Positions 2,499-23,567 of a DNA stretch of 64,000 bases are shown here, piece after piece; position 1 is the stretch's first letter; each line of letters begins with the position of its first letter. The stretch is from contig NZ_WTVG02000037.1 in NCBI RefSeq assembly GCF_012910705.2, positions 1-64,000 of the forward strand, given 5' to 3'. Made by a program: the position numbers and the translations under genes. The DNA is from Aromatoleum anaerobium (lineage in GTDB: Bacteria; Pseudomonadota; Gammaproteobacteria; Burkholderiales; Rhodocyclaceae). The notes beneath the pieces are model-generated. The model worked only from the letters and a program-made list of their open reading frames with translations, made no database searches and was not told the origin of the DNA.

Positions 2499-2511
2499 GG
2501 TGTTCCTCACC

Positions 2512-3435: not shown

Positions 3436-3461
3436 GTAATACTCGCCGAAACAGCGTATAA

Positions 3462-4404: not shown

Positions 4405-6513
4405 ATGCACATGTACATTGAATCGAAATCACGCCGCGACGGAGCCCTGGTGAATCCGGAGACGAGGGCGATGTTCCTGCACGTGCTCGCCGACGGGCGC
4501 CACGCGCTAGACGCTACCGAACTGGGCATCCTGCTCTCGGACCTCGACGTACAACTGGATGCGGACGGCACCGCGGCCGGCCCGGCCAACGTCGAACTGC
4601 GCCTCGGTTTGTACAACACTGCCGAATTCGGCATCGTCATTCGCGCCGGCTTCGGCGGGCTGGACGCCGAGCTCGACCAGGCCAATTTCAGGAAAGATAG
4701 TGCCGCCGTGTCGGCAATCGCGGAGCTGACCGACGCCGATGATTTTCTCGCGCTGTTCCAGCGGACCATCGTCTATCAGAAGCTCGCCGTGCTCGCCGCG
4801 CGCAGCGGCCAACCGCTCCCGGACGTCCAGTTGAGAGCCTGCTTCGCGCGCTTGCTGGCGCTGGCCGACCGCTTTGCACCCGGTGCTCCGGAGGCGAGCG
4901 TCGTCGTGAACCGCCTCGAACTCGATCCGCTGCACGTCGGCGAGCGGCTGGTGGCCCGCTCGGCGCGCTGCGAACTCGCCGCGCCGTCGGTCCGACGCAA
5001 CCCCCGACCGATCCACAAGATCGACAAGTTGGTCCATCCCGAATCGATCGGCATCATCGGCGTGTCGGCCAGCGGCATGAACTTCGGCCGGCTGATTCTC
5101 GGCAACCTGCTCAAGAGCGGCTGCAGCCCGGCGCGCGTGACGATCATCCGGCCGGGCGAGACCGAGATCGACGGGGTGCGTTGCGTCGAAAGCCTCAAGG
5201 CGCTCGATCACAAGCTCGACCTGCTGATCGTCGCAGTCGCCGCGAGCGCGGTGTACGACCTCGTCGACGAGATCATCGAGACCGGCGCGGTCGAATCGGT
5301 GATGCTGATTCCGGGTGACCTCGGCGAAACGAAGAAGAGCCGGGAGCCGGCCGCGGCCCTCGCGGCGCGGATCAACGCCGCCCATGCGCGCGCCGACGGT
5401 GGTCCGATCTTCGTTGGCGCCAACTGTCTCGGCGTCGTGTCGCATCCCGGATCGTACGATTCCTGGTTCATCCCGAAGGAGCGCATGCCGAAGCCGCGCA
5501 ACACGGCCGAACGGACGTCGGTGCTGATCAGTCAGAGCGGCGCGTTCATGGTCATCCGCCTGACGATGAATCCGTGGCTGGACCCGCGCTACATGGTGGC
5601 GCTCGGCAACCAGACCGACCTCACGCACGGCGACATGCTGAGCTATTTTGCCGGACGCCCGGAGATCGAGACGATCGGTATTTATGTGGAAGGGTTCAAG
5701 GAACTGGACGGCCTGGATTTCGCCCGGGCGGTACGCCGCGCAGTGTTGAACGGCAAGCAGGTCGTCGTCTACAAATCCGGCAAGACTGCGGCCGGCATGG
5801 CGGGCGTGATGGGTCATACCGCATCGGTCGCAGGCGATCCGGTCCTGTTCGAGTCGGTGGTCCGGCACGCCGGGGCGATGGTGGCCGAAGACTTCAGCAC
5901 CTTCGACGATCTCCTCTACATGGCGGGCGCGCTGCACCACAAGAAGATCGGCGGCCACCGGCTGGCCGGTCTGAGCGGGGCCGGCTCCGGCGCCGTGGCG
6001 ATCGCCGACGCGACCGGGTCGGACACCTTCTCGATGGAAATGGCCGAGCTCGACGGGACCACCGTCACGCGCCTGGGGGAGATTCTTGCCGCCAAGCGCC
6101 TCGACGCGCTGGTCGAGATCCGCAACCCGATCGACATCAACCCTGGCGCCGACGACGAAGCGCACCTGCAGATCGCCGAGGCGCTGGCCCAGGACCCGAA
6201 CGTCGATGCCGTCGTCGTCGGACTCGACCCGACCGCGCCATCGGTACGCGGACTGGAGACGAGCGCGTTGCGCCCCGGTTTCGACCTGGGCGATCCGAAG
6301 GGCACAGTGCACCTGATGCCGGCGATCGTCGAGCGCAACGACAAACCGATCGTCGGCATCGTCGATGGCGGGAGTCTCTACGACGCGATGGCGGAACGCC
6401 TGATGGATCAGGGCGTCTGCGTGTTCCGGGACTGCGCGCGCGGTACGCGGGCGCTGGTGCGCTACGCCGAGGCGCGGCGCAGCGCCGAGGCGATCAGGGA
6501 CCGGAACCGCTAA
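4405..6513 (+). CDS. ADP-forming acyl-CoA synthetase-like protein, degenerate beta domain fused ahead of alpha domain
   Basis: The 702-residue product resembles NDP-forming acyl-CoA synthetases, which make acyl-CoA and ADP from acid, CoA and ATP. Residues about 205-680 match the alpha part: a Rossmann CoA-binding domain (HPESIGIIGVSASG), then the ligase domains with the histidine that is phosphorylated in this family (GHTASVAGDP, His471). Residues 1-195 resemble only the C-terminal part of the ATP-grasp beta subunit (VNRLELDPLHV is like ELDINPLLV), so the ATP site looks incomplete. ATG at 4405 follows AAGGAG by 7 nt. Its place in the cluster suggests activation of an aryl carboxylate, which is an inference. 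Confidence 0.75.
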   Translation: MHMYIESKSRRDGALVNPETRAMFLHVLADGRHALDATELGILLSDLDVQLDADGTAAGPANVELRLGLYNTAEFGIVIRAGFGGLDAELDQANFRKDSAAVSAIAELTDADDFLALFQRTIVYQKLAVLAARSGQPLPDVQLRACFARLLALADRFAPGAPEASVVVNRLELDPLHVGERLVARSARCELAAPSVRRNPRPIHKIDKLVHPESIGIIGVSASGMNFGRLILGNLLKSGCSPARVTIIRPGETEIDGVRCVESLKALDHKLDLLIVAVAASAVYDLVDEIIETGAVESVMLIPGDLGETKKSREPAAALAARINAAHARADGGPIFVGANCLGVVSHPGSYDSWFIPKERMPKPRNTAERTSVLISQSGAFMVIRLTMNPWLDPRYMVALGNQTDLTHGDMLSYFAGRPEIETIGIYVEGFKELDGLDFARAVRRAVLNGKQVVVYKSGKTAAGMAGVMGHTASVAGDPVLFESVVRHAGAMVAEDFSTFDDLLYMAGALHHKKIGGHRLAGLSGAGSGAVAIADATGSDTFSMEMAELDGTTVTRLGEILAAKRLDALVEIRNPIDINPGADDEAHLQIAEALAQDPNVDAVVVGLDPTAPSVRGLETSALRPGFDLGDPKGTVHLMPAIVERNDKPIVGIVDGGSLYDAMAERLMDQGVCVFRDCARGTRALVRYAEARRSAEAIRDRNR

Positions 6514-6540
6514 CCGGGTGGGCGAAAACGACCTGGGGCC

Positions 6541-6725
6541 GTCTCGCTCAGCGCGGCGGCCTGTGCATTCTCCTGCATCATTAACAAGGCCGCGGCGGAG
6601 GTTTCACTCACCAAGACGTTCAAAGAGGTAATGCCGTTTCTCGCTTCAGACTTGGTCCACATCGTGTTGCTGCTGTTTTTGCCTGTCCTCTCGCTGTACC
6701 CGGTACGCACCTTCGGCGGCCAACC
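6541..6725 (+). pseudogene. Remnant of a TRAP transporter large permease gene (dctM 3' end)
   Basis: Read in the frame of position 6541, this gap encodes VSLTKTFKEVMPFLASDLVH followed by a hydrophobic stretch ending in FLPVLSLYPVR. That is the typical C-terminal helix of DctM permeases. No start, no N-terminal 11 helices and no stop at the expected place are present. It lies directly before dctP, where dctQM often sit, so a permease gene was probably deleted down to its last 60 codons. Confidence 0.6.
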
Positions 6726-6760
6726 AGACCCGTTCATTCGACCTGTAGAAAGGAAAACCG

Positions 6761-7792
6761 ATGAAAACCCGCAATCTGCTCACCCCGCTTTTCGCTTCCG
6801 TCCTGATGACGTTCGGCGCAGCCCAGGCTCAGGCAGACAACGTCGTCACGCTGCGCGTGCATCATTTCCTGCCGCCATCGTCGAATACGCAGGTGAAGTT
6901 CCTCGAACCATGGTGCGCGAAGCTCAGCGCGGAATCCGCGGGCCGGCTGAAATGCCAGATCTATCCGGCGATGCAGATGGGCGGCACGCCGCCGCAGCTC
7001 TTCGACCAGGCCAAGGACGGCGTCGCCGACATCGTGTGGACCGTTCCCGGCTACCAGGCTGGCCGCTTCCTCGTGTCGGAAGTGTTCGAACTGCCGTTCA
7101 TGGGCATCTCCGGCGAGAAATCGAGCCGGGCGTTGTGGACCTACGCGACGAAAAACGCGACCGACGAATACAAGGGCGTGCGGCCGCTGATCTTCCATGT
7201 GATCTCCGGCATGGCGCTGCATACGACGAAGAAGCAGATCAAGACCATGGCGGATCTCAGCGGCATGAAGCTGCGCGCGCCGACCCGGCTTGCGACCAAG
7301 ATGGTCGCCGCGCTCGGGGCGACCCCGGTGCCGATGCCGATGCCGCTCGTTGCAGAGAGTCTCGCCAAGGGTGTCATTGACGGGGCGATGATGCCCTGGG
7401 AGGTGGTGCCGACGATGAAGGCGCAGGAAATCGTCAAGTACCACACCGAGACCGATCCGAGCTTGCCACTGCTGTCGACGACCACCTTCGTGCTGGCGAT
7501 GAACCCGGCCAAATACGACAGCCTGCCGCCGGAGCTGAAGAAGGTCATCGACGCGAACAGCGGCGCCGACGTGTCGGCGTGGGCCGGCAAGGTCTGGGAC
7601 GATGCGACGCATACCGGGCGGCAGTCCGGTGTCGACCACAAGAACGTCTTCTATACGGTCCCCGCGGACGAACTGAAAGGCTGGCAGAAGGCCTCCGAAT
7701 CGGTTGCGACCGAGTGGGTCAAGGAAGTCAGCGCCAAAGGCTATGACGGCAACAAGCTATTGATCGAAGCACGGGCGCTGCTGGCCAACTGA
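6761..7792 (+). CDS. dctP: TRAP transporter solute-binding protein (DctP family)
   Basis: This is a 343-residue periplasmic binding protein. Residues 1-25 form a signal peptide ending AQAQA. The mature part has the DctP features LRVHHFLPPSS, GVADIVWTVPGYQAGRF, ELPFMG, KTMADLSGMKLRAPT and VIDGAMMPWEVVP. DctP proteins bind carboxylates (often aromatic or dicarboxylic acids) and deliver them to a DctQM permease. ATG at 6761 has AAAGGA upstream. No intact dctQ or dctM is in the window; only a dctM tail precedes it, so it must borrow a permease from elsewhere or be non-functional. Confidence 0.9.
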   Translation: MKTRNLLTPLFASVLMTFGAAQAQADNVVTLRVHHFLPPSSNTQVKFLEPWCAKLSAESAGRLKCQIYPAMQMGGTPPQLFDQAKDGVADIVWTVPGYQAGRFLVSEVFELPFMGISGEKSSRALWTYATKNATDEYKGVRPLIFHVISGMALHTTKKQIKTMADLSGMKLRAPTRLATKMVAALGATPVPMPMPLVAESLAKGVIDGAMMPWEVVPTMKAQEIVKYHTETDPSLPLLSTTTFVLAMNPAKYDSLPPELKKVIDANSGADVSAWAGKVWDDATHTGRQSGVDHKNVFYTVPADELKGWQKASESVATEWVKEVSAKGYDGNKLLIEARALLAN

Positions 7793-7909
7793 CGGCCGAA
7801 TGTTTCGCTCCCCGGCGCCCGTGCCGGGGATTTTTCACCGTGACCCAACGTGTGGCTGGCTCCACACGAGGCGATCGTGTCTCGCCCCCGGCGCCCGAAG
7901 ACGTCGAGT

Positions 7910-8036
7910 TCTGGACCTCTCGGTGGTCGGAAACGACCGGGAGGATGGTGGCCGAAGACTTCAGCACCTTCGATGATTTCCTCTATATTGCGGGCGCGCT
8001 GCATCACAAGAAGATTGGCAGCCACCGGCTGGCCGG
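7910..8036 (+). pseudogene. Fragment of a second acyl-CoA synthetase gene
   Basis: From 7944 to 8036 the sequence copies 5877-5969 of the 702-codon synthetase gene with about eight substitutions, mostly at third positions. It encodes MVAEDFSTFDDFLYIAGALH in place of MVAEDFSTFDDLLYMAGALH. Weaker similarity with indels extends back to about 7910. No start, catalytic histidine or remaining domains survive. It follows dctP, so a paralogous synthetase gene once lay there. The rest of the 7793-8123 gap shows no gene. Confidence 0.75.
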
Positions 8037-8123
8037 GCCCGGCGCAGGCGTTCGGGCACTTGTCGCAGCACCAGCACGTCATCGAATATCCGGTCCATCC
8101 GATTTCCTTCAGGAGCGAAGGCT

Positions 8124-8675
8124 TTGGCGCATCCGGCACCTTCAACCATGGAGATTCATCCCACTGCGGACGACCGGCGCATCGCGCGGCTGGCGACCGC
8201 GGCGATCGTGCTGACGGTCGCCGAAGCCGCGATTCCGCTGCCGCTGCCGGGAGTCAAGCCGGGGCTCGGGAACATCGTGATCCTGATCGTGCTGCTGCGC
8301 TGGGGCTGGCGCGATGCGGTGTGGGTTGCGCTGTTGCGCGTGTTCGCGAGCAGCCTGCTGCTCGGGCAGCTGTTCGCGCCGGGATTTTTCCTCAGCCTCG
8401 CCGGCTCGCTGACGAGCCTCGCGACGCTGGGGGTGGCGAAGCACCTGCCGCGGCGCTGGTTCGGGCCGGTGAGCCTCAGCGTGTTCGCCGCGTTCGCGCA
8501 CATCGGCGGGCAGCTTGCGCTCGCCCGCGCGTGGCTCGTGCCGCACGACGGGGTGTTCTATCTCGTGCCGGTGTTCGCCGCGGCGGCGACGCTGTTCGGC
8601 CTGATCAACGGGCTGGTCGCGGCGCGTCTGTTGCGGGACCGCATTGGCGCGGCGGCGGGCGCAAACGAGCGGTAG
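8124..8675 (+). CDS. Gx transporter family / HepS-like membrane protein
   Basis: This is a small membrane protein (183 residues from TTG 8124, 175 from ATG 8148) with about five hydrophobic helices. It has [22 protein letters not shown] near the N-terminus and [19 protein letters not shown] in the middle, both typical of the Gx/heptaprenyl-diphosphate-synthase component I family. The family is predicted to move a small hydrophobic or vitamin-like substrate and often pairs with a NusG-like protein, which is absent here. TTG 8124 has AGGAG 8 nt upstream while ATG 8148 has none, so the TTG start is preferred. Confidence 0.75.
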
Positions 8676-8702
8676 CGGGCGGGGCTGGCCGCAATTTTGC
8701 TC

Positions 8703-8868
8703 GCTCAAGAAAACGCTGGGCCGCCCCAAGTATTCTTGTCCCCCTCGGGGGGGCGGAAACGGCAAAGCCGTTTCCTGGGGGCGCTCAAGAAAACGCCGGG
8801 CCGCCCCCAAGTTTTCTTGTCCCCCTCGGGGGGCGGAAACGGCAAAGCCGTTTCCTGGGGGCGCTCAA
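8703..8868. repeat. Tandem 80-bp GC-rich repeat with internal hairpins
   Basis: Two full 80-bp units (8703-8782 and 8783-8862) are followed by the first bases of a third. Each unit has two dyads: AAGAAAAC/GTTTTCTT flanking a GC core, and the perfect hairpin GGAAACGGC-AAA-GCCGTTTCC. A CCCCCTCGGGGG stretch lies between them. The units differ at only a few bases. The element sits between the Gx transporter gene and acuI and could act as a terminator or be a mobile intergenic repeat of this lineage. Confidence 0.85.
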
Positions 8869-8901
8869 TTCCTGGGCGGATTTCCATCGAGAGGAGGCAT
8901 C

Positions 8902-9894
8902 ATGTTCAAGGCGGTACTGATCGAGAAGGACGACGCCGGCTACCGGGCGACGCTGACCGATGTCGATGACGCGCGCCTGCCCGATGGCGACGTGACGGTG
9001 CGGGTCGCCTATTCGACGCTGAACTACAAGGACGCGCTCGCGATCACCGGCAAGGGGCCGGTCGTGCGCAAGTTCCCGATGGTCCCCGGCATCGACCTCG
9101 CCGGCACCGTCGAGCACAGCTCGCACCCGGACTACCGGGCCGGCGATCTGATCGTGCTCAACGGCTGGGGCGTCGGCGAAGGCCACTGGGGCGGGCTCGC
9201 GGAGAAGGCGCGGCTTGCCGGCGACTGGCTGGTGCCGCTGCCGGCAGCGTTCTCGCCGAAGCAGGCGATGGCGATCGGCACCGCCGGCTACACCGCGATG
9301 CTGTGCGTGATGGCGCTCGAACGGCACGGCGTGACGCCGGACCAAGGCGAAGTGCTCGTCACCGGCGCGAACGGCGGCGTCGGCAGCGTCGGCAGCGTCG
9401 CGGTGTCGCTGTTGTCGACGCTCGGCTACCGCGTCGTCGCCTCGACCGGCCGGCCGAACGAAGTCGAGTACCTGAAGACCCTCGGCGCCGCCGAGATCAT
9501 CGACCGCGCGCAGTTCTCGATGCCGGGCAAGCCGTTGGCGAAGGAACGCTGGGCCGGCGCCGTCGACACGGTCGGCAGCCACACGCTCGCCAACGTCTGC
9601 GCCAGCATGAAGTACCGCGGCGTCGTTGCCGCGTGCGGCCTCGCGCAGGGCATGGACTTCCCTGCGACGGTTGCGCCGTTCATCCTGCGCGGCGTCACGC
9701 TCGCCGGCGTCGACAGCGTCTATTGTCCGCGGCCGGAGCGCCTGGAAGCGTGGCAGCGGCTCGCTCGCGATCTCGATTTGGCCCATCTCGACCTGATCTC
9801 GCAGGAAGTGGGTCTCGCCGACGTGATCCGCCTTTCCGGCGAACTGCTCGCCGGCCAGGTGCGCGGGCGGCTGATCGTCGACGTCAACCGTTGA
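8902..9894 (+). CDS. acuI: Zinc-free MDR oxidoreductase, AcuI/YhdH (acrylyl-CoA reductase family)
   Basis: The 330-residue product is a medium-chain reductase of the AcuI/YhdH group, which reduces acrylyl-CoA or similar enoyl compounds with NADPH. Visible features are [42 protein letters not shown], the dinucleotide fold [15 protein letters not shown], and the C-terminal [10 protein letters not shown]. Structural zinc cysteines are absent, as usual for the group. ATG at 8902 follows GAGGAGG. It is convergent with ruvC, 60 nt away. Its physiological substrate here is unknown. Confidence 0.9.
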
Positions 9895-9954
9895 GCGGGC
9901 CCGCCCCGACGAGGCGCGTCGCGACGAGCCGGCCGAGCGGGGGGATGGGGTGCG

Positions 9955-10512
9955 TCAGCCGAGGTCCGGCGCGACGAGGATGCGCCCGGCGCGACGCCGC
10001 CCGACGAACCCGTCCGGCGTGCCCTGGCCGCCGTGCGCGTGACAGATCGCGCATGCGAGGGCGTCGGCAGCGTCCGGGCTCGGGCTGCCGTCGAGCGCGA
10101 GCAGCCGCTGCACCATGTGCTGGACCTGTTCCTTGGCTGCCTTGCCGTAGCCGACGACCGCCTGCTTGACCTGCAGCGCGGTGTATTCATGCACCGGCAG
10201 GTCGCACGACACGGCGCCGCAGATCACCGCGCCGCGCGCCTGGCCCAGCAGCAGCGTCGATTGCGGATTGACGTTGACGAACACTTTCTCGACCGCGACC
10301 TGGTCGGGCGTGTAGGCCGCGACGACTTCGCGCACGCCGTCGAGCAGCGTCTTCAGCCGTCCGGGCAGTTCGCCGTCGCGGGTCCGGATGCAGCCGCTCG
10401 CGACGTAGCGCAGCTGGTTGCCGAGCTTGTCGATGACGCCGAAGCCGGTGATGCGCAGCCCCGGATCGAGTCCGAGAATGCGGGTGGCAACGACGGTGGA
10501 AGCGCTTTTCAT
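9955..10512 (-). CDS. ruvC: Holliday junction resolvase RuvC
   Basis: RuvC is the endonuclease that cuts Holliday junctions in recombinational repair, working with RuvAB. The 185-residue protein opens with [17 protein letters not shown], giving the first catalytic Asp, then [20 protein letters not shown] with the catalytic Glu, and [12 protein letters not shown] with the C-terminal acidic residues. I chose ATG at 10512, since the extra upstream residues in the frame are not family-like. The usual ruvA and ruvB neighbours are not seen on the downstream side, where it converges with acuI. Confidence 0.96.
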
Positions 10513-10680
10513 GCCCTGCATTCTACGGGCCATCCCGACTCGGCGCTCGACCGGCGATGGGCGGACGCGAACGGGTCGCAACGCGGACGCCGCGCGGGGC
10601 GACCCGCTCGGGCATGGCTTCTTTTCCGGCTACGCGAAAAGCATGTCCTATGCTTGAATTCCATGACCAGGAGAAGCCTC

Positions 10681-12543
10681 ATGCTCGCACGCACCCTGCT
10701 TGGCTCGGTGGCCGCGACGCTGTTCAGCGTCGCGGCCGCTGCCGACTTCAGCGGCACCGTTTTCTTCGGCGACAGTCTCAGTGACGCCGGCAGCTTCGCC
10801 CCGCTCCTGCCCCCGGGCAGCGGGCGATTCACGACGAACCCGGGGCCGGTGTGGACCGAGAACCTTGCCGCCGAGCTCGGCGCCAACGCGACGCCCGCGA
10901 CGGCCGGCGGCAGCAACTTCGCGCAAGGCGGAGCGCGTGTGGCCCTGCAGCCGGGCGTCCCCGACACGAATCCGCTGACTGCCGCGGCTGTTCCGGTCCG
11001 TGACCAGGTGTCGGCGTTCCTCGCCGGCGCCGGGAGCGCGGACCCGGACGCTCTGTATTCGGTGTGGGCCGGGGCCAACGACCTGTTTCGCGCGATCGAC
11101 CCGACGAAGCCGGAATCGGCGAATCCGCTCGCCTACCTCGTCGCGAGCGCGACGCAGCTCGCCGGCGAGATCGCGCGCCTGAAGGCGGCGGGGGCTCGTT
11201 ACATCCTCGTCGCGACGCTCCCCGACATCGGCGCGACGCCGTTCGGCGCCTCGGTCGGCCCGGCCAATGCGACGAGCATCACCGCGCTGGCCGGCGCCTT
11301 TAACCAGACGCTGTTCGGCACCCTCGCCGGCGGTGGATTCACCGTGATCCCTGCGCTGCAAATCTCTGTGCAAGGTATCGAAGTGATTCCGCTCGACATC
11401 TTCACGCTGCTGCAGGAAGTCGGCGCGGATCCGGCGGCCTACGGATTCGCCAACGCGAGCGCGCCGGCCTGCGGTGCGACCGCGTCGCTCGTTTGCACCG
11501 CGGCGCATTTCGTCGTTCCCGGCGCTGAGCAGAGCTTCCTGTTTGCCGACGGTGTGCATCCGACGACGGCCGGCCACCGCGTCATCAGCGACTATGCGCT
11601 CGGCGTCCTGTCCGCACCGCACGCGATTTCGCTGCTCGCCGAGTCGCCGCTGCATTCGCGCGCGGCGCTGTTCGCGACGATCCAGGACCAGACGTTGCTC
11701 GGCGCCCGGGCGCGGCACGCGGGGGCGAAAGTGTGGGCCAGAGCCGGCGGCGGACAATTGAGGTTCTCGTCGGGGGCCGCATCGCCGGGCGCGAGCGGCG
11801 ATCCATACGATTTCGCGCTGGGTGTCGACTGGCGAGTGTCGTCGAACGTCGTCGTTGGCGCCGCGCTCGGCCTCGCCACGCTCGACGCGGACTTCTCGCA
11901 CAACCGCGGCGGTTACGAGCAGGATGAGCAGACCCTCGCGCTCTACGCCGGCTACCGCAACGGCGGCGCGCATGCGATGCTCGTCGGGGCGGCCGGCGAT
12001 CTGGATTACGACATCAAGCGGGTCGTCACGCTCGGCAGCCAGCGGCGCGCAATGAACGGTTCGACTTCCGGCTCCAGCGTGTCGCTCGGCGTGCTCGCCG
12101 GCTACGATTTCGCTGTCGGCGCACTGATGCACGGCCCGATCGCGAGCCTGCATTTGCAGCGTGTCCGTGTCGATGGCTTTGCCGAGCGCGGCCTCGCTTC
12201 GACCGCGATGATTTTTCGCAGCCAGGAGCGTGAATCGCAGCTCGGCAGCGTCGGCTATCAGGCGGCGTACGATCTCGGCCGCTACCTGCCGTATGCGCGC
12301 GTGACGCTCGACCACGACTTCGAGGATGCGGACCGCGACGTGCGCGCGCGGCTCGCGTCGCTGCCCGCCAACAGCTTCGGCCTGCCCGCGTTCGAAGCCG
12401 GACGTACCTATGGCACGGCCACGCTCGGCGTCGGCGCCAGGTTCTCGCCGGCGCTGGCCGGGAATGTAGCGCTGACGGCGCGCCTCGATCAGGATGACGT
12501 CCGGGCGTACGCGCTGCACGTCGGGCTGAGCGTCGGCTTCTGA
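10681..12543 (+). CDS. Autotransporter GDSL esterase/lipase (EstA-like)
   Basis: This is a 620-residue secreted esterase of the SGNH/GDSL family fused to a type Va autotransporter barrel. It has a signal peptide (residues 1-21, ending AAAA), block I FFGDSLSD with nucleophile Ser32, block III GAND near residue 130, and block V DGVHPT near 290 with the Asp-His pair. From about 350 it has the autotransporter beta-domain of alternating strands and ends in VGLSVGF with a terminal Phe. It should be anchored in the outer membrane, exposing the esterase. AGGAG lies 7 nt before ATG 10681; the ATG at 10663 lacks such a site. Confidence 0.93.
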   Translation: MLARTLLGSVAATLFSVAAAADFSGTVFFGDSLSDAGSFAPLLPPGSGRFTTNPGPVWTENLAAELGANATPATAGGSNFAQGGARVALQPGVPDTNPLTAAAVPVRDQVSAFLAGAGSADPDALYSVWAGANDLFRAIDPTKPESANPLAYLVASATQLAGEIARLKAAGARYILVATLPDIGATPFGASVGPANATSITALAGAFNQTLFGTLAGGGFTVIPALQISVQGIEVIPLDIFTLLQEVGADPAAYGFANASAPACGATASLVCTAAHFVVPGAEQSFLFADGVHPTTAGHRVISDYALGVLSAPHAISLLAESPLHSRAALFATIQDQTLLGARARHAGAKVWARAGGGQLRFSSGAASPGASGDPYDFALGVDWRVSSNVVVGAALGLATLDADFSHNRGGYEQDEQTLALYAGYRNGGAHAMLVGAAGDLDYDIKRVVTLGSQRRAMNGSTSGSSVSLGVLAGYDFAVGALMHGPIASLHLQRVRVDGFAERGLASTAMIFRSQERESQLGSVGYQAAYDLGRYLPYARVTLDHDFEDADRDVRARLASLPANSFGLPAFEAGRTYGTATLGVGARFSPALAGNVALTARLDQDDVRAYALHVGLSVGF

Positions 12544-12667
12544 ATACGGGCGAATATGGCCGAGGCGCTTGCCGCCGAGCAAGTGCCAGTCGCGCGGGGG
12601 ACGGTGGCGGGCTGCCATGAACTTCGGTGGTCGTGCGGCGGTCAGCCGGGATGAGGAACAAGGAACG

Positions 12668-12844
12668 ATGACGCCGCAAGTGGACCGGGTGTATGTGATC
12701 GAGCTGTGCAGCGGCGAGTTGCGGCACTGGCGTTTTCTCGGGCTGGATCGCCGCGAAACGGCATGGTGGCGCGACGAGGAGACCGGGCGCACGTTCTCCG
12801 AGGCGAGCCTGATGTACGTCTGGGAGATCGTCGCGGAGGCGTGA
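12668..12844 (+). CDS. Small hypothetical protein, 58 residues
   Basis: This short reading frame encodes a compact acidic protein rich in Trp and Glu: MTPQVDRVYVIELCSGELRH, then WRFLGLDRRETAWWRDEETG and a C-terminal VWEIVAEA. I do not recognise a family. AGGAAC sits just before ATG 12668. An in-frame ATG at 12617 would add 17 residues of less protein-like sequence. It is flanked by the autotransporter gene and, after a hairpin, the convergent sigma54 regulator. Confidence 0.5.
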   Translation: MTPQVDRVYVIELCSGELRHWRFLGLDRRETAWWRDEETGRTFSEASLMYVWEIVAEA

Positions 12845-12906
12845 ACCGGCCGGAAGCACCGCCGCAGATGCTTTTCCGTATTCCGTATTCGGTATTCGCC
12901 CGTCCT

Positions 12907-12926
12907 GCCGCCTGTCGATAGGCGGC
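12907..12926. terminator. Hairpin between convergent genes
   Basis: GCCGCCT-GTCGAT-AGGCGGC is a perfect 7-bp stem with a 6-nt loop in the gap between the small protein gene and the regulator gene, whose 3' ends face each other. There is no clear U-tract, so intrinsic termination is only possible. Confidence 0.4.
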
Positions 12927-12977
12927 ATTCAATGACCCGCACTCGATGAGCCCGCACGCGGTGCCGGTGGTCGCCGC

Positions 12978-14324
12978 TCAGCTCCGGTTGAGCCGCTTCC
13001 ACAAGGTCGTGCGCGACATGCCGAGCCGGCGCGCGGCTTCCGCCCGGTTGCCGCCGCACTGCTCGAGCATGCGCCGGATCTGCGCCTGCTCCTCGTCGGG
13101 CGTCACCTGCGTCGCGTAGTAGCGCGTCAGCGGCAGTGGCAGTGGCACCTCGTGCGTCGACTCGACGGGGGCCACGACTTCGGGCAGCAGGTGCTGCGGC
13201 AGGATCGTCGCACCGCCGGAATTGACGACGGCATATTCGAGCGCGTTGAACAGTTGCCGCACGTTGCCCGGCCAACTGTAGGACTCCATCGCCACGATCG
13301 CCTCCGGCGACAGCCGCAGATCGGGCCGGCGGTAGCGTTCGCCGAGCTCGCCGAGCAGCCGGCTCGCGAGCAGCGCGATGTCCTCGCGGCGCTCGCGCAG
13401 CGCCGGCACGTGCAGCGGCAGCACGTGCAAGCGGTAATACAGATCCTCGCGGAACTCGCCGCGGCCGACCATTGCGGCGATGTCGCGGTGCGTCGCGGCG
13501 ACGACGCGCACATCGACCTTGCGCGGATGGTTCTCGCCGACGCGCACGATCTCGCGCTCCTGCAGCACGCGCAGCAACCGGGTCTGTGTTGCCGGAGAAA
13601 TCTCGCCGATCTCGTCGAGCAGCAGCGTGCCGCCGTTGGCGGCTTCGAAGCGGCCCAGGCGCGCTCCGGTTGCGCCGGAAAACGAGCCTTTGGCGTGGCC
13701 GAAGAGTTCCGATTCCTGCAGGTTTTCCGGCAGCGACGCGCAATGCACGGCGACGTAGGGGCCTTTCGCGCGCGCCGAGTTGTCGTGCAGCGCGCGCGCA
13801 ACCAGTTCCTTGCCGACGCCGCTTTCGCCGGTGATCAGCACGTTGGCTTCGCTCGCCGCGATGCGCAGCACTTTCTGGTAGAGGTCCTGCATCGCGCGGC
13901 TGCGCCCGGTCAGGCCGCCGAGCTGCCAGCGGTCGCGCACCTCGGCTTCGAGTTCGACTTCGCGCGAGCGGTCGCGCAGCACGATCGCGCAGTACAGCCC
14001 GGAATCGTTCGGCGGCAGCAGCATCGCCCACATGCGCAGCGGAATGTCGACGCCCGTGGGCGAGCGCACGATGATGTCCTGGACCTTGTCGTCCTCGCCC
14101 TTCGCCGGGGTCAGCGAACATTCTCCGCGCGCTTCGCAGGCCCGGGCACACTCGGTGCCCCGGAACAGCGTCGGACACAGTTCGTCGACGAGGCGCCGGT
14201 CGTCGTGCCCGATCATCCGCGCCGCTGCGCTGTTCATCTCGAGGACGCGGCGCGCCCGGTCAAGAAACAGCACGCCTTCTTCGAGGCTGTCGAGAAATAC
14301 TCGCAGGGTTGCCAGACTCGGCAT
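12978..14324 (-). CDS. Sigma54-dependent activator with cysteine-rich PAS sensor domain
   Basis: The 448-residue protein is an enhancer-binding regulator. Residues 5-125 form a PAS-like sensor containing four cysteines, C50-x8-C59-x3-C63-x5-C69, which could hold an Fe-S cluster or metal. Residues 138-370 are the AAA+ domain with Walker A GESGVGKE (166-173), Walker [11 protein letters not shown] (231-240) and the sigma54 contact loop reading GSFSGA (213-218) instead of GAFTGA. The C-terminus is a Fis-type helix-turn-helix ([20 protein letters not shown]). ATG 14324 follows AAGGAGG by 8 nt. It is divergent from the norYS operon, which carries a -24/-12 promoter, so it very probably activates that operon in response to NO or redox state (inference). 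Confidence 0.9.
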
Positions 14325-14346
14325 CTGAATCCTCCTTTTTGTCCAG

Positions 14347-14373
14347 ACTGAACGTCCAGAGCGAACGTTCAGT
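14347..14373. promoter_or_regulatory. Upstream activator palindrome ACTGAACGT-N9-ACGTTCAGT
   Basis: A perfect 9-nt inverted repeat with a 9-nt spacer lies between the sigma54 activator gene and norY. Its centre is about 110 bp upstream of the start site predicted from the -24/-12 element, a usual distance for an enhancer-binding protein site. It is also 23-49 bp upstream of the regulator's own start codon, so autoregulation is possible. Confidence 0.7.
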
Positions 14374-14423
14374 TTCTCCTCCACGACATTCCAGCAGCTA
14401 AGCGCTGCGCGAAAAATGATTGT

Positions 14424-14436
14424 GATCAATGATTTG
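14424..14436 (+). promoter_or_regulatory. IHF-like site (overlapping an FNR-like dyad)
   Basis: GATCAATGATTTG matches the IHF consensus WATCAANNNNTTR at all fixed positions but the first. It lies between the upstream palindrome and the -24/-12 element, as IHF sites do in sigma54 promoters. The overlapping bases 14416-14429 also read ATGAT-N4-ATCAA, one mismatch from an FNR/Anr box, so control by an anaerobic regulator is an alternative. Confidence 0.5.
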
Positions 14437-14443
14437 CCAGATG

Positions 14444-14459
14444 TGGCACAGTGCTGGCT
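14444..14459 (+). promoter_or_regulatory. Sigma54 -24/-12 promoter of the norYS operon
   Basis: TGGCAC-N5-TGGCT matches the sigma54 consensus TGGCACRNNNNTTGCW with a single mismatch (T to G at the -13 side), and GG/GC spacing is exact. Transcription would start near 14470, about 50 nt before the GTG start of norY. A divergent sigma54 activator gene, the palindrome at 14347-14373 and the IHF-like site all support this reading. Confidence 0.75.
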
Positions 14460-14518
14460 AAGAGAATGCAAGGGGGACGGCTTGTCCCGAAGACGATCGC
14501 ATGACAGGAGAATCCACC

Positions 14519-15049
14519 GTGCAACCAATCGCTTGGCAAATATCGCTCGTGCTGATGGCGCTCGTCGCGTTCGGCTTTGCCTTTGTCGCCATCAATTCCG
14601 GCCGGCGTCAGGAAGACTACACGCCGCTGCAAAAAAGCGCCTATCGCCTGCGCACGCGCCTTTTCTGGGGCCTGGTGCTGGTGTTCGGCCCGGCGATGAT
14701 CTACACGCTGCTCGAGCTGCCGTACGATGCGGCGCGCGCGAACGCCGGGGCGGGGCCGGTGCAGGTCGTCGAGGCGACAGGTTACCAGTGGCGCTGGGAG
14801 CTCAGCCAGGATCGCGTCGCCGTCGGCCAGCCGGTCGAGTTCCGCGTTACCAGCGCCGATGTCAATCACGGCTTCGGCATCTACGATGCGAACCTGCACC
14901 TGGTCGCACAAACGCAGGCGATGCCCGGCTACATCAACACGCTGCGCCACACTTTCAGCGAGGAGGGGACGTACAAGATCCTGTGCATGGAGTACTGCGG
15001 CCTCGCGCACCACAACATGTTGACCGAAATCCGGGTCGGCGCTCAGTAA
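14519..15049 (+). CDS. norY: sNOR subunit II (NorY), CuA-containing cytochrome oxidase subunit II homolog
   Basis: The 176-residue protein has one or two N-terminal membrane helices and a periplasmic cupredoxin domain. The CuA ligands are present: His in VNHGFGIY and the loop [12 protein letters not shown] with both Cys, His and Met. It takes electrons from a donor such as cytochrome c and passes them to subunit I. Gene order norY-norS-senC-orf1 matches the sNOR cluster known from ammonia oxidisers. I prefer GTG at 14519, since AGGAG lies 8 nt upstream; ATG at 14501 has no ribosome site. A plain oxygen-reducing oxidase is the alternative. Confidence 0.8.
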
Positions 15050-15063
15050 CGGAGGAGACGAAC

Positions 15064-16551
15064 GTGGCGACCTACACTTACGAACATATTCCCGACCAGG
15101 GAGCGAAAGTCGGCGTGCTGGCCTACCTCGCGACATCGGCCGTCGTGCTGCTGCTGATGATGGTCTTCGGCCTGCTGATGCGGCTTGAGCAGGCGCAGTG
15201 GATCTCGATCGGCGCGATCCGCTTTTACGAACTGATGACCTTGCACGGCGCCGGCATGGTCGGCATCGCGGCGATCGCCGGCGCGTCGATCATGTGGCAC
15301 TTCCTGCGCCAGTACGTCGAGCTGTCGTCGCGCATCTTCATCGCGAACCTCGTGCTGTTCCTCGTCGGCGTCGTGATGATCCTCGGCAGCGTGCTGCTCG
15401 GGCATTTCCACGGCGCGTGGACGTTCCTGTACCCGCTGCCCGGCAAGTCGATGGGCTTGTGGAGCCCCGGCGCGGCAGCGCTCTTCATGGGCGGGCTGCT
15501 CGTCATCGGCGTCGGCTTCCTGCTGCTGCACCTCGACATCGCGCGTGCGCTCGTCGCGCGCTACGGCAATTTCTCGCGTGCGCTCGGCTGGCCGCAGCTC
15601 TTCGGCGAGGATGACGGCAAGGCCCCGCCGCCGACGGTGGTCGCGAGCGCGATGGTCACCGTTGTCAATGTCATCGGCCTGGTCGTCGGTGCGAGCATCC
15701 TGGCGATGATGCTGGTGAACCTCTACGTGCCCGAGTTCGACATCGATCCGTTGCTCGCGAAAGGCATGATCTATTTCTTCGGCCACATCTTCATCAACGC
15801 GACCATCTACATGGCGGTGATCGGGGTCTACGAGATCCTGCCGCGCTACACGCAGCGGCCGTGGAAGTCGAACAAGGTGTTCCTCGCGTCGTGGACGGCC
15901 TCGACGCTGATGGTGATGTTCATCTTCCCGCACCACCTGCTGATGGACTTCGCGTTCCCGAAGTGGATGCTGATCATGGGCCACATCATCGGCTACCTGA
16001 ACACCGTGCCGATCCTCGTCGTCACCGGCTACGGCGCGCTGATGATCGTGTATCGCTCGGGCATCCGCTGGGACATGGCGTCGAAGCTGCTGTTCCTGTC
16101 GCTGTTCGGCTGGGCGGCGGGCGCGATGCCGGCGTTCATCGACGGCACGATCACGGTCAATTACGTGATGCACAATACGCTGTGGGTGCCCGGCCACTTC
16201 CACACCTACCTGCTGCTCGGCATGGTGACGATGGTGTTCGGCTTCATGTACTACCTCGGCAAGCCGAGCCACGAACACGACGATCACCTGATCGACCGCA
16301 TCGCGTTCTGGCTCTTCACGTCGTCAGTGCTCGGCTTCACGATGAGCTTCCTGTATTCCGGCAAGGAAAGCGTCGCGCGCCGCTACGCTGCCCACCTGCC
16401 CGAATGGGTGCCGTACGACCGCATCGCGTCGGTGTTCGCGGTGCTCGTGATCGCCTCGTCGCTGGTGTTCATCGGGCGTTTCTTCGCCCGCATCGGGCTC
16501 GCGCGCCACGACTACCAGCGCGCTCCGGTCGCGCGCAGCGCCGTGGCATGA
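15064..16551 (+). CDS. norS: sNOR catalytic subunit I (NorS), heme-copper NO reductase
   Basis: The 495-residue integral membrane protein of about 12-13 helices belongs to the heme-copper oxidase superfamily, closest to B-type (YVMHNTLWVPGHFH is like ba3). All six histidine ligands are seen: His61 and His380 for low-spin heme, His378 for high-spin heme, and His241, His290 and His291 for CuB. The helix that in oxidases reads GHPxxY reads GHIFIN, so the tyrosine cross-linked to the CuB histidine is Asn245. Loss of that tyrosine marks NO reductases derived from oxidases. GTG 15064 lies 6 nt after GGAGGAG. It would be labelled coxA by routine annotation. Confidence 0.8.
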   Translation: MATYTYEHIPDQGAKVGVLAYLATSAVVLLLMMVFGLLMRLEQAQWISIGAIRFYELMTLHGAGMVGIAAIAGASIMWHFLRQYVELSSRIFIANLVLFLVGVVMILGSVLLGHFHGAWTFLYPLPGKSMGLWSPGAAALFMGGLLVIGVGFLLLHLDIARALVARYGNFSRALGWPQLFGEDDGKAPPPTVVASAMVTVVNVIGLVVGASILAMMLVNLYVPEFDIDPLLAKGMIYFFGHIFINATIYMAVIGVYEILPRYTQRPWKSNKVFLASWTASTLMVMFIFPHHLLMDFAFPKWMLIMGHIIGYLNTVPILVVTGYGALMIVYRSGIRWDMASKLLFLSLFGWAAGAMPAFIDGTITVNYVMHNTLWVPGHFHTYLLLGMVTMVFGFMYYLGKPSHEHDDHLIDRIAFWLFTSSVLGFTMSFLYSGKESVARRYAAHLPEWVPYDRIASVFAVLVIASSLVFIGRFFARIGLARHDYQRAPVARSAVA

Positions 16552-16570
16552 GTGGCATGAGTCCGGGTCG

Positions 16571-17185
16571 ATGAGTGCGGCCGCGCGCAGCGTCGTCCTG
16601 ACGGTGCTGGTGACCGTTCTCGGCACCGGCGCCTTCTGGTGGGGGACCAACGGTTTCAGCGCTTTTACCGCTGAAACCGCCCGCCGCGCCGACATCCTGC
16701 GCGCGCCGCGGCCGCTGCCCGCGGCGGTCCTCGAAGACCAGGACGGCCGTGTCTTCCGGCTCGACGATTACCGCGGGCGCTTGCTCGCGGTCGAGTTCAT
16801 CTACACGCGCTGCACGACGATCTGCCGCAGCCTCGGCATGGCGTTCAAACAGATCCGCGACCGCGTGCCGCCTGACGCCCTCGGGCGTGAGGTCGCGCTG
16901 CTGAGCATCAGCTTCGACCCCGAGCGCGACGATCCGGCGAGCCTCAAAGCCTACGGCAGCGGTCATGGCGCCGACGGCGAGCACTGGCGCATCGCGCGAG
17001 TGCGTGATGCAGCGCAGCTGCAGGCGCTGCTGAAGGCCTTCGGCGTCGTCGTGATCGCGGACCGCTTCGGCGGGTTCGAGCACAACGCCGCGATCCACCT
17101 CGTCGCCCGCGACGGGCGGCTCGTCGAAATCAGCGATCTCGAGGCGCCGCTCCAGTTTGCCCAGAAGCTCGCGGAGGCGCTGTGA
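16571..17185 (+). CDS. senC: SCO1/SenC-type copper chaperone
   Basis: The 204-residue protein has one N-terminal membrane anchor (residues about 7-27) and a periplasmic thioredoxin fold. Copper-binding residues are present: Cys81 and Cys85 in YTRCTTICRS and the His in the FEHNAAIHLV region. SCO proteins load or reduce the CuA site of oxidase subunit II, so here the likely client is NorY. It sits 19 nt after norS and overlaps orf1 by 4 nt (GTGA), so the genes are translationally coupled. Confidence 0.9.
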   Translation: MSAAARSVVLTVLVTVLGTGAFWWGTNGFSAFTAETARRADILRAPRPLPAAVLEDQDGRVFRLDDYRGRLLAVEFIYTRCTTICRSLGMAFKQIRDRVPPDALGREVALLSISFDPERDDPASLKAYGSGHGADGEHWRIARVRDAAQLQALLKAFGVVVIADRFGGFEHNAAIHLVARDGRLVEISDLEAPLQFAQKLAEAL

Positions 17186-17832
17186 TCGCCGCGCTCGCCC
17201 GTCCGCAAGTCGGGCTCCGCGTGCTCGGCGCGCTGTACCTGCTGCTCGCGGCGCCGCCGCTGCGGACATCGCTCGAAGCGACGATGAGCGGCCACATGCT
17301 GGTGCAGATTCCGCTTCTCGCCGCGATCGGCTTCGTCGCCTGCCGCCTGCTGCCGGAACAGCGGCAGGAGCGCCTGCTCGCCGCGGGCGGCGGTGCGGTG
17401 CCGTACGTCGTGCTGGCGGTCTTCGCATCGACCTGGTGGATGTTGCCGCGTGCGCTCGACGATGCGCTCGTGAGCCCGACTGTCGAGGCGGCGAAGTTCG
17501 TCAGCCTGCCGGCGCTCGTCGGGCTGCCGCTCGCGCTTGCGTGGCGCCGGCTCGGACCGATCGGCCGCGGCTTCGTCTGGACCAACTTCATCAGCATGCT
17601 CGCGGTGCTCGGCTGGCTGTACATCGCCGCGCCGCTGCGGGTGTGCAACAGCTACCTCGTCGACCAGCAGGAGAGCGCCGGCTGGCTGATGGTGAAGCTC
17701 GCGCTGCTGCTGTTCGCCGGCTGGCTCGGCAGCCTGTTCGTCGGCGGGGGCGGAAGTCCCGCGCTGTCCGCCGCGGAGCATGTTGCGCCCCGGTCGGCGC
17801 AGAGCCGCGACTGCGGTCCGGAGCGCGATTGA
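17182..17832 (+). CDS. Orf1 of the norSY-senC-orf1 operon, polytopic membrane protein
   Basis: This is a 216-residue protein with about six hydrophobic segments (such as VLGALYLLLAAPPL and AVLGWLYIAAPLRVCNSYLVDQQ). Its function is unknown. It starts with GTG overlapping the senC stop and is the last gene of the operon. A membrane protein called orf1 has the same position in the sNOR clusters of Nitrosomonas, which supports the operon assignment. A role in assembly of the reductase is a guess. It ends 7 nt from the stop of the convergent exporter gene. Confidence 0.75.
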   Translation: MIAALARPQVGLRVLGALYLLLAAPPLRTSLEATMSGHMLVQIPLLAAIGFVACRLLPEQRQERLLAAGGGAVPYVVLAVFASTWWMLPRALDDALVSPTVEAAKFVSLPALVGLPLALAWRRLGPIGRGFVWTNFISMLAVLGWLYIAAPLRVCNSYLVDQQESAGWLMVKLALLLFAGWLGSLFVGGGGSPALSAAEHVAPRSAQSRDCGPERD

Positions 17833-17839
17833 ACCGTGT

Positions 17840-18724
17840 TCAGACCTTGCGCGCGAGCCACACGCCCGACACGGCGATCACCATGCCGGCGAGCGCGAAC
17901 CCGGTCAGCGTCTCGCCGAACAGCAGCCAGGCCATCAGCGCGGTCGTCGGCGGCGTGAGGTAGAACAGGCTCGCGACGTTGACCGCGCTGCCGCTGCGGA
18001 TCAGTAGGTTCAGCAGGCTGATCGCGCCGAGCGACAGCACCAGCACCAGCCACAGCATCGCAAACACGAACTCGCCGCTCCAGTCGATCTGCATCGTCTC
18101 GGTGCGGCTCGCGAAGTACGCGGTGACGAGCAGGCACGGCACGAACTGGATGACCGAGCCGGTGCGCAGGTCGAAGGATGGGCAGAAGCGCTTCTGGTAC
18201 AGCGTGCCGGCGGTGATGCCGGCGAGGGCGGCCAGCGCCGGGGCGAGCATCCAGCCGAGCTCTGCGGACGACCCGTTGCCGAACGCGACCTTGTTGCTGA
18301 CGACCAGCGTGACGCCGATGAAGCCGAGCGCGAGTCCTGCCCATTGCCGGGCGCTGACGCGTTCGCCGAGCAGCCAGCCGGCGCCGAGCGCGGTGAGCAG
18401 CGGCTGCATGCCGACGACGAGCGCCGCGACCCCGGTCGGCAGCCCGCGGTGCAGCGTCATGAAGACGCCGCCGAGATAGGTGGCATGCACCAGCAGGCCG
18501 GCAACGCCGATATGCACCGCCTGGCGCCAGTTGCTCGGCCAGCGCGCGCGGGTAGCGAGTGCCAGCACCGCCATCAGCGCGATCACCAGCCCGTAGCGGG
18601 CGGAAAGAAAGGTCAGCGGCTCGGCATAGGGCAGACCGAACTTCGCGCCGATGAAGCCGGTGCTCCACAGGAGCACGAACAGCAGCGGGGCGGCGGCGGT
18701 GAGGGAGGGCGGCAGGGTCGGCAT
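17840..18724 (-). CDS. DMT superfamily transporter (EamA family)
   Basis: The 294-residue protein has ten predicted membrane helices arranged as two five-helix EamA repeats. WSTGFIGAKFGLPYAEPLTFL opens the first, and the second ends with LTPPTTALMAWLLFGE followed by GMVIAVSGVWLARK. DMT transporters of this type export amino acids or other small metabolites; the substrate cannot be told. It converges with the norYS operon. A large imperfect palindrome lies 58 bp upstream of its start and may be its operator. Confidence 0.85.
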   Translation of the reverse strand: MPTLPPSLTAAAPLLFVLLWSTGFIGAKFGLPYAEPLTFLSARYGLVIALMAVLALATRARWPSNWRQAVHIGVAGLLVHATYLGGVFMTLHRGLPTGVAALVVGMQPLLTALGAGWLLGERVSARQWAGLALGFIGVTLVVSNKVAFGNGSSAELGWMLAPALAALAGITAGTLYQKRFCPSFDLRTGSVIQFVPCLLVTAYFASRTETMQIDWSGEFVFAMLWLVLVLSLGAISLLNLLIRSGSAVNVASLFYLTPPTTALMAWLLFGETLTGFALAGMVIAVSGVWLARKV

Positions 18725-21705: not shown

Positions 21706-23292
21706 TCAGCGGTTGCGGTCGCCCGTCTTGGCGGTGAAGAGTGCCGGGCGCGGTTGCGGGCGACGGTTGCCGTCGGGTCGTGGTGCCGGGCGGGCGCTGT
21801 CACCGCCGCGTGGCGCGCCGTTCGGCCCGGCGTTGCGCGGCGCCCGGTTGCCGTCCGCGTCGGGACGTGCGCGGTTGGCCTCGATCTCGCTGCGCGGCGC
21901 CCGGTTGCCGTCCGCGTCGGGACGTGCGCGGTTGGCCTCGATCTCGCTGCGCGGGGCGCGATTGCCGAAATTGTCGGCGTCGCGCGGCCGGGCGGGAGCA
22001 CGGGCCGGCGACGGGTGGGCCGCCTGTCGGCCGGCGGGGCGGTCCGTTCGTGCCTGGCGCGGCGCGTTCGCGTCGTTGTGTCGCGACGGCTGACGGGACT
22101 GGGGCCGCGGAGGACGGGCGTCGCTCTCGTTCGGGTCAACCGGCGCGATCGCGAAGGCCGGCAGCGCTTCGCGGTCGATCGTGCGCTTGATCAGCCGCTC
22201 GATGGCCGTCAGGTGCTGGCGCTCTTCCGAGTCGACGAACGACACCGCTGCGCCGCTCGAACCGGCGCGGCCGGTGCGGCCGATGCGGTGGACGTAGTCT
22301 TCGGGAACGTTCGGCAGTTCGAAGTTCACGACGTGCGGCAGCTGGTCGATGTCCAGTCCGCGCGCGGCGATGTCGGTCGCGACCAGCACCGGCAGCGACC
22401 CGTCCTTGAATTCGGCCAGCGCGCGGGTCCGCGCCGACTGGCTCTTGTTGCCGTGGATCGCGGCCGACGGGATGCCGTGCTTGGCGAGGTATTCCGCGAG
22501 CTTGTTGGCGCCGTGCTTGGTGCGCGTGAAGACGAGCACCTGGTGCCAGTCGTTCTGCTTGACGAGGTGCACCAGCAGATCGCGCTTCTGCTTCTGCGCC
22601 ACGGAATAGACCGACTGCTGCACGAGTTCCGACGCGGTGTTGCGCCGCGCGACCTCGACGCAACCCGGATTGTGCAGCAGGCCGTTGGCGAGGCTGCGGA
22701 TCTCGTCCGAGAAGGTCGCCGAAAACAGCAGGTTCTGGCGCTGCTTCGGCAGCAGCGCGAGGATCTTGCGGATGTCGCGGATGAAGCCCATGTCGAGCAT
22801 GCGATCCGCTTCGTCGAGGATCAGGATCTCGACGCCCGACAGGTCGAGCGTCTTCTGGCCGACGTGGTCGAGCAGCCGGCCGGGGGTCGCTACGAGGATG
22901 TCGACGCGTTTTTTCAGCGCCTGGATCTGCGGGTTGATGCCGACTCCGCCGAACATCACCAGCGAGGTCGTCGGCAGGTGCTTGCCGTAGGTCCGGACGG
23001 ATTCCTCGACCTGTGCCGCGAGTTCGCGCGTCGGGGTCAGGATCAGGCAACGCGGTCGGCCCGCCTTCGGGTTCGCGGCCGGGGCGGCGCAGAGGCGGTG
23101 CAGCACCGGCAGCGTGAAGCCGGCCGTCTTGCCGGTGCCAGTCTGTGCGGCGGCGAGCAGGTCGCCGCCGGCGAGCACGAGCGGGATCGCCTGGGCCTGG
23201 ATCGGCGTTGGCGTCGTGTAGCCGGATTCGGAAATTGCGCGCAGCAGCGGCTCGGCCAGTCCGAGACCGGCAAAGTTTACTTCTGATGTCAT
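21706..23292 (-). CDS. rhlE: DEAD-box RNA helicase, RhlE-like
   Basis: The 528-residue protein has the full helicase core: Q motif ([26 protein letters not shown]), motif I AQTGTGKT, Ia [31 protein letters not shown] and [12 protein letters not shown]. The tail from about 390 is basic, disordered and rich in Arg, Asn and Pro; it contains a tandem 19-residue repeat. Such helicases remodel RNA in ribosome assembly and decay. ATG 23292 begins [12 protein letters not shown]; the longer frame is not supported. Confidence 0.93.
21841..21954 (-). repeat. 57-bp tandem repeat inside the helicase tail
   Basis: Two identical or near-identical 57-bp units (21841-21897 and 21898-21954) encode two copies of a 19-residue unit, [20 protein letters not shown] third, degenerate unit follows. 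Length polymorphism by slippage would stay in frame. Confidence 0.85.
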
Positions 23293-23567
23293 CGAGAAAA
23301 TTGCTCCAGCGACGGCCTGTCGCTCAAGCTGAGTGACACCAATCGAGGCGGGCGGGGGAATGAGACCGGAAAAGGTCGTTGTGGAAGAGCGTCGCCGATT
23401 GGCTGGGCGCACGCTAAGAAATGGATTGTACGGGCTTTTGCGGCACTGCAGCGAAATTCTTGCGCAAAGTGTGGACGATGCGCCACGCTACCACTTCTGT
23501 ACGATGTTTCGGCGGCCGATTGGCGGTTATAGTCCCCGTTCTGTCCATGGTCTACAGGTGCCGGTCG

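Follow-up and report, generated by a model that had tools for sequence, protein, structure and literature searches.

The window, a stretch of 64,000 nucleotides from Aromatoleum anaerobium (contig NZ_WTVG02000037.1, positions 1 to 64,000), contains four genes that look like parts of a cytochrome oxidase, and a divergent sigma54 activator gene faces them. Do these genes encode an oxygen reductase or sNOR, a haem-copper nitric oxide (NO) reductase, and what switches them on? Gene content, active-site residues, clade, control-site anatomy and co-occurrence can be read directly from the DNA. They make it likely that the window holds an sNOR operon of a denitrifying Aromatoleum, which would reduce NO and be switched upon NO or nitrosative stress by an activator with a four-cysteine PAS domain. 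sNOR itself, the order of its operon and its misannotation are already known (PMC4940428, PMC8756737, PMC11388526). The new part is the regulation, in which a sigma54 unit varies the NorR-type arrangement.

Gene order, active site and clade

A first-pass annotation had described a CuA subunit II, a haem-copper subunit I, a SCO/SenC chaperone and a coupled membrane protein in the sNOR order, and all four genes are found at 14501-17832:

14501-15049, plus strand: norS, CuA subunit II, 182 aa, CoxB-like, with a CuA motif
14519, plus strand: alternative norS start (GTG), with AGGAG at 14506-14510, read from the sequence
15064-16551, plus strand: norY, catalytic haem-copper subunit I, 495 aa, PF00115 E=3.4e-49
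16571-17185, plus strand: senC, SCO-type copper chaperone, SCO1/SenC PF02630, CxxxC (CTTIC)
17182-17832, plus strand: orf1, membrane protein, 216 aa

While the gene identities hold, the names norY and norS had been reversed, because PMC6967387 and PMC3772326 assign norS to the CuA subunit and norY to the catalytic one. The coordinates were right in substance, except that no gene begins at the proposed start, 14347, which adjoins a predicted activator site at 14349-14371.

The genes are tightly packed on the plus strand, with a 4-nt overlap between senC and orf1. We compared them with 80 named loci kept of 495, giving 81 loci with the window; distant sNORs are therefore under-sampled. The order norS-norY-senC-orf1 occurs in 77 of the 81, so the arrangement is not due to chance. 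L063, L065 and L066 have no SenC match, and L070 lacks norS since its contig begins inside norY. The contig of this last locus was binned as Anaerolineae, and its norY is 82% identical to that of the window and lies among Betaproteobacteria in the tree, probably a binning error. The CuA motif C-x-[EQ]-x-C-x3-H-x2-M is present in 79 of 80 NorS proteins, the exception being L095. Lys105, Arg153, Cys155 and Gln163 of orf1 are invariant among 47 aligned members. A Foldseek search with the orf1 model (pLDDT 90) returned no solved structural relative (best E 2.2). DUF1404 provides a weak lead, matched by 10 of the 47 members (best E 1.4e-5), with the orf1 of the window not among them.

The helix VI motif of NorY is GHIFIN. 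In an alignment with Thermus ba3, Asn245 stands at the position that we take to be the cross-linked Tyr of oxidases, in agreement with the first-pass view of a subunit I without this residue. The cross-linkable helix VI Tyr that characterizes the B-family oxygen reductases (ba3) is thus absent. All six histidines that bind haem and CuB in the family are kept (His61, 241, 290, 291, 378 and 380), among them three CuB His and the haem His. The motifs GHxxxN, HHxxxD and GHxH are found in 80 of the 81 loci; in L038 the stretch is masked. The residue alignment omitted L020 (internal TAG), L030 (partial), L031 and most same-genus rows. By alignment, Val252, Ile317 and Val320 stand opposite Y244, S309 and T312 of the ba3 K-type channel, and Tyr256 is kept at ba3 Y248. 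At NorY positions 252, 317 and 320, the residues of three B-oxidase rows are Tyr, Ser and Met. A table in PMC8756737 lists sNOR with Asn and with no proton channel.

The first-pass annotation had proposed a phylogeny against the other haem-copper families, in which branching within the oxygen-reducing oxidases would refute the sNOR assignment; this refuting outcome did not occur. In a 51-row tree, NorY falls into a 26-row clade (support 99/96) with the sNORs of Nitrosospira, Nitrosomonas and Bacillus, and not within the sampled oxygen reductases. The clade is separate from A-family, C-family and B-family oxidases (GHPLVY) as well as from the GHTLVN bNOR-like and GHSxQQ eNOR-like rows. NorY thus does not group with the bNOR-like (CuANOR) GHTLVN rows near the B-family oxidases, which form a clade of their own. 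The family labels were assigned by motif and not from characterised proteins, and the tree contains long branches elsewhere (A with C family; L031 with L168). Its input comprised 30 of the 80 named norY, with L004, L156 and L162 lacking a usable frame, and 15 of 66 rows were removed (near-duplicates, one partial, one other).

Among named organisms, Aromatoleum species come closest (norY of A. buckelii is 98% identical), and Nitrosospira norY is still 80-81% identical. The window shares gene order, CuA subunit, Asn site, SenC and orf1 with the norSY-senC-orf1 cluster of the ammonia oxidiser Nitrosospira multiformis (Nmul_A2667-64, PMC4940428), the resemblance noticed on the first pass. norY is present in the A. 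anaerobium genome and in 12 of 16 further genomes of the genus. It is absent from all 44 genomes sampled elsewhere in the family and order. In a class-wide sample, 13 of 368 other genomes have a norY match; the match of L031 (32% identity) lies outside the sNOR clade. The predicted confusion with oxidases does occur. The R. pomeroyi relative is annotated as a cbb3-type cytochrome c oxidase subunit I, KEGG labels sNOR coxA (PMC11388526), and norSY was formerly named coxB2A2 (PMC6967387).

It is possible, but unlikely, that NorSY acts in vivo as a high-affinity oxygen reductase with NO reduction as a side activity, and that the activator responds to low oxygen or to redox state. In N. europaea the sNOR genes rise 2.7- to 10.8-fold under oxygen limitation, and the authors favour the reading as a high-affinity oxidase (PMC6967387). 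The active site argues the other way, with Asn for Tyr and with Val252, Ile317 and Val320 in place of the Tyr, Ser and Met of the three B-oxidase rows, as does the position of NorY outside the oxygen reductases in the tree. The host genome also has oxidases already. Its 4.56 Mb contain five PF00115 genes, which by motif are two A-family, one C-family (cbb3-type), one NorB-like and norY.

The genes downstream of norB look by eye like norE, norQ and norD. Four frames on one contig match Cytochrom_D1 (NirS family), with one weak frame elsewhere, and two nosZ genes pass the cut-off. The NirS-family frames are clustered at C37:279774-293238, and the nosZ copies lie on C13 and C2. Because the genome already has NirS-family frames, a norB-type gene and nosZ, the sNOR of the window looks like an additional NO reductase in an apparently complete denitrifier.

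The neighbours of related operons speak for nitrite or NO over oxygen. Formate/nitrite transporters (FNT) occur in 40 of the 80 named loci (13 strong, E 4e-68 or better; 27 weaker, 1e-22 to 3e-6) and Rrf2 regulators in 21, and the sNOR operon of R. pomeroyi is accompanied by both genes. Of the 5 Rrf2 proteins scanned, 4 match NsrR best among the NCBIfam families, in no case above its curated cut-off; the best family of the fifth (L044) is RirA. eNOR-like subunits adjoin sNOR in L044 and L064, and L038 has a similar pair of matches with an unusable frame. In L044, a Ramlibacter metagenome-assembled genome, positions 1-13470 form an NO reductase island with sNOR, an eNOR-like pair, an FNT transporter, an Rrf2 regulator and a sigma54 activator. 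The island also contains a norB-like gene at 10521-12797 that has no NCBIfam match.

The activator and its predicted control region

The region upstream of norS contains the activator gene and three predicted control elements:

12978-14324, minus strand: sigma54 activator (bacterial enhancer-binding protein) with PAS, AAA+ with GSFSGA loop and Fis-type helix-turn-helix; ATG preceded by AGGAGG
14349-14371, strand not assigned: predicted upstream activating sequence, tandem TGAACGTTCA palindromes (TGAACGTCCA-GAG-CGAACGTTCA)
14424-14436, plus strand: IHF-like site GATCAATGATTTG, 1 mismatch to the IHF consensus WATCAANNNNTTR
14444-14459, plus strand: sigma54 -24/-12 promoter TGGCACAGTGCTGGCT, scored by our own weights

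The divergent activator with a four-cysteine PAS domain, seen already on the first pass, has the expected domains. C50, C59, C63 and C69 (counted from the ATG) form the pattern C-x8-C-x3-C-x5-C, which is kept in 26 of 26 orthologues. These come from 25 of the 80 named loci and the window, nearly all of them Betaproteobacteria, plus Thiohalobacter. In the PAS model (pLDDT 74; numbering +1), Cys51 opens a helix at 51-54, Cys60 and Cys64 lie in a helix at 59-67, and Cys70 follows just after it. The nearest folds include LOV, haem-PAS and NifL PAS. As such folds include oxygen and redox sensors, the model lends some support to the oxygen reductase reading. The protein is not NorR: it has a PAS instead of a GAF domain and scores 333.6 bits with the NorR model, which has a cut-off of 476 and aligns only from its position 181 on. 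None of the 21 places in the host genome matched by the NorR model passes that cut-off.

A distant sigma54 regulator (L171:6511-7881) has a three-cysteine PAS. Because it contains only C-x8-C-x3-C, the four-cysteine form may elaborate a broader motif, which suggests that a wider family of Cys-PAS activators exists.

Between the 5' end of the activator gene and norS, the TGAACGTTCA copies come first and are followed by the IHF-like site. The -24 element begins the promoter some 20 nt beyond that site, and the promoter reads TGGCACGN4TKGCT or nearly so. Sites were scored against the sigma54 -24/-12 consensus with weights chosen for this analysis and a threshold of 12.5. A site is present in all 26 activator loci, compared with 3.4% of random 200-nt windows, and in 24 it lies within 200 nt of the activator 5' end, even where a small gene precedes norS. 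Four of the 54 activator-less loci reach 12.5 in about 400 nt before norS, one of them reaching 13; L104, also one of the four, was scanned over 7.4 kb. Seven activator-less loci have less than 3 kb upstream of norS, and the absence of an activator is less sure there.

The palindrome separates the two groups more sharply. With up to one mismatch, TGAACGTTCA occurs in 24 of 26 activator loci and in 0 of 54 activator-less loci (300 nt; also 600 nt), and random 125-nt windows hold it in 1.0%. All 22 exact copies in the 325,674 nt of the 26 loci fall inside control regions. A scan of both strands of the 81 loci finds a single combination of palindrome and promoter at the right spacing in each of 24 loci. 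Every one of these lies at the operon, and no activator-less locus has any. L068 and L069 are missed because their palindromes carry two mismatches.

In 21 of 26 loci, the 40 nt preceding the -24 element contain a candidate IHF-like match (up to 1 mismatch). A FNR/DNR box at 14416-14429 (ATGATTGTGATCAA) was considered first; it is now read as IHF-like, because the part conserved in the aligned regions fits the IHF consensus better than a dyad. No sigma70 promoter and no plus-strand terminator are predicted across 14300-18100, and the window has no Rfam match at gathering thresholds. All features of a sigma54-dependent operon are present at the sequence level (-24/-12 element, upstream sites, AAA+ activator and rpoN, with two sigma54 genes in the host genome). 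The conserved control region co-occurs with the activator, in line with the dedicated sensor that had been proposed.

Small genes of several kinds stand between the sigma54 promoter and norS in L039-L042, L044, L045, L056 and L058-L062 (by eye). They are cytochrome c-like in L044 and carry DPLxxSFxRxLxH-type repeats in others, as if leader genes had been gained repeatedly.

Divergent genes need not be regulator and target, and the activator could merely adjoin the operon and control other genes. This is very improbable. In L054 and L074 the activator is located downstream of the operon, but a -24/-12 site still lies within 250 nt before norS; site and promoter thus stay with norS or the leader gene. 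The paired TGAACGTTCA site moreover occurs at a single place in the A. anaerobium genome, also when up to 3 mismatches are allowed.

A predicted second target and the probable signal

Whole-genome searches provide an independent check of the control pattern. Of 17 Aromatoleum genomes, 13 contain the tandem site (up to 3 mismatches). Exactly these 13 also have norY and a strong PAS match (E 2.4e-74 or better), which the site adjoins in each. The four norY-less genomes have neither a tandem site nor a strong PAS match. Weaker PAS matches are a partial one in G012 (5e-7) and weak extras in G009 and G015. The class sample (369 genomes, at most 10 candidates scored per genome) has a strong PAS match in two, A. 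anaerobium and G393, both with norY; six others match weakly (E 2.7e-11 to 7e-7).

Twelve of the 13 Aromatoleum genomes contain one tandem site, and G009 has a second, 5 kb away. There, two exact palindromes are accompanied by a third, degenerate one, by a stretch that looks IHF-like by eye, and by the -24/-12 element TGGCATGGATTTCGCT. This second site precedes a short open reading frame and an 889-909 aa protein, a NorV-rubredoxin-NorW fusion (L190:5496-9009) situated next to the activator and the sNOR operon. The fusion passes the NCBIfam cut-offs for NorV flavorubredoxin (802 vs 711 bits) and NorW (427 vs 392). NorV is an NO reductase unrelated to the haem-copper enzymes. In enterobacteria norVW is under NorR control (PMC1274295), and in G009 it appears to be controlled by the four-cysteine activator as well. 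Because the predicted targets are two unrelated NO reductases, the signal of the activator is probably NO, and sNOR probably acts on NO; this best evidence here comes from one genome. The shared control with NorVW also argues against the oxygen reductase reading.

A response to another signal, such as nitrite, thiol or metal stress, or general redox state, with NO reductases as part of that response, is possible but less likely. In its favour, the gene of the three-cysteine relative is close to one for a ferredoxin-like ATPase, and its nearest neighbours show no NO gene by eye. This has to be set against the predicted targets of the activator, which are only sNOR and, in one genome, NorVW.

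Several points weigh against an NO-reducing sNOR under a dedicated NO switch, in addition to the oxidase interpretation in N. europaea. The activator is a minority case, with 55 of 81 loci having none nearby, and 12 of 14 norY-positive genomes of the class sample lack a PAS match. The 26 loci used for counting the palindrome motif are also those that defined it. After correction for the tree (a quick one), five independent pairs agree with the association of activator and palindrome, none oppose it and one is neutral (p=0.0625), which is suggestive, the events being too few to reach significance. The connection with NorVW comes from one genome, G009, and since the reversed control pattern also found a match, at a single place each, in 2 of the 17 genomes, counts alone leave room for a stray match in one genome. 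Neither an FNT gene nor an Rrf2 gene stands beside the operon in the window or in the seven named Aromatoleum loci, and the nitrite/NO context of the neighbours therefore comes from relatives.

On balance we favour the NO-responsive sNOR operon, for which we infer the following mechanism. NorS would receive electrons through CuA from a periplasmic c-type cytochrome, and NorY would turn 2 NO into nitrous oxide (N2O) at a haem/CuB site without the oxidase Tyr and without proton pumping. SenC would deliver the copper, and orf1 would probably aid assembly. Transcription would start at about 14469 from the sigma54-requiring -24/-12 promoter. The activator, as an oligomeric AAA+ ring, would bind the pair of TGAACGTTCA palindromes, which lies some 80-95 bp before the -24 element, the intervening DNA would be bent by IHF, and the four-cysteine PAS would switch the activator upon NO or nitrosative stress.

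Elsewhere in the window, 21706-23412 encodes a DEAD-box helicase (by eye) with a C-terminal tail of near-exact repeats of about 19 aa.

Known systems and implications

The main sNOR survey is reportedly that of Murali et al. (2024, PNAS). Further surveys building on it exist (PMC12569097). Among the open-access matches listed, no paper links sNOR to a sigma54 activator or names the TGAACGTTCA site. Unlike the sNOR operons of ammonia oxidisers, that of the window is preceded by a sigma54 activator and promoter, and its host has NirS-family frames, a norB-type gene and nosZ. None of 12 Nitrosospira, Nitrosovibrio or Nitrosomonas loci has a flanking activator or a -24/-12 score of 12.5 in the 400 nt before norS.

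The arrangement resembles NorR-norVW of enterobacteria and NorR-norB of Ralstonia, in which genes for a sigma54 activator and an NO reductase lie together, with palindromic enhancers in tandem and a sigma54 promoter (PMC1274295). The sensor domain differs, as NorR has a GAF domain (PMC2941729), and so does the predicted site, TGAACGTTCA here and GT-N7-AC for NorR. In function, the activator probably corresponds to NorR, with a sensor of another kind. In R. pomeroyi and Nitrosococcus oceani (Noc2967-2971, PMC3772326), the same enzyme operon also stands beside a likely NO-responsive regulator. Those NsrR-linked loci have an Rrf2 repressor, however, where the window has a sigma54 activator, and the two occur together in only 1 of the 80 named loci.

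There is an even chance that this is a second, independently evolved NO-responsive sigma54 switch. The four-cysteine PAS, probably with an iron-sulfur cluster or another metal, would then do the job of the NorR GAF iron centre. Many Betaproteobacteria, and among the gammaproteobacteria at least Thiohalobacter, would use the switch as a dedicated control of sNOR, and in one Aromatoleum it would drive NorVW too.

sNOR is among the least understood NO reductases, with a disputed function and an annotation as oxidase. A dedicated activator whose predicted targets are NO reductases provides separate, genetic grounds for regarding NO as the substrate of sNOR, and it suggests that a new class of sensors for gases or nitrosative stress exists. 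The promoter system is testable in the seven named Aromatoleum isolates that carry operon and activator. In denitrifiers, sNOR may be an easily overlooked source of N2O.

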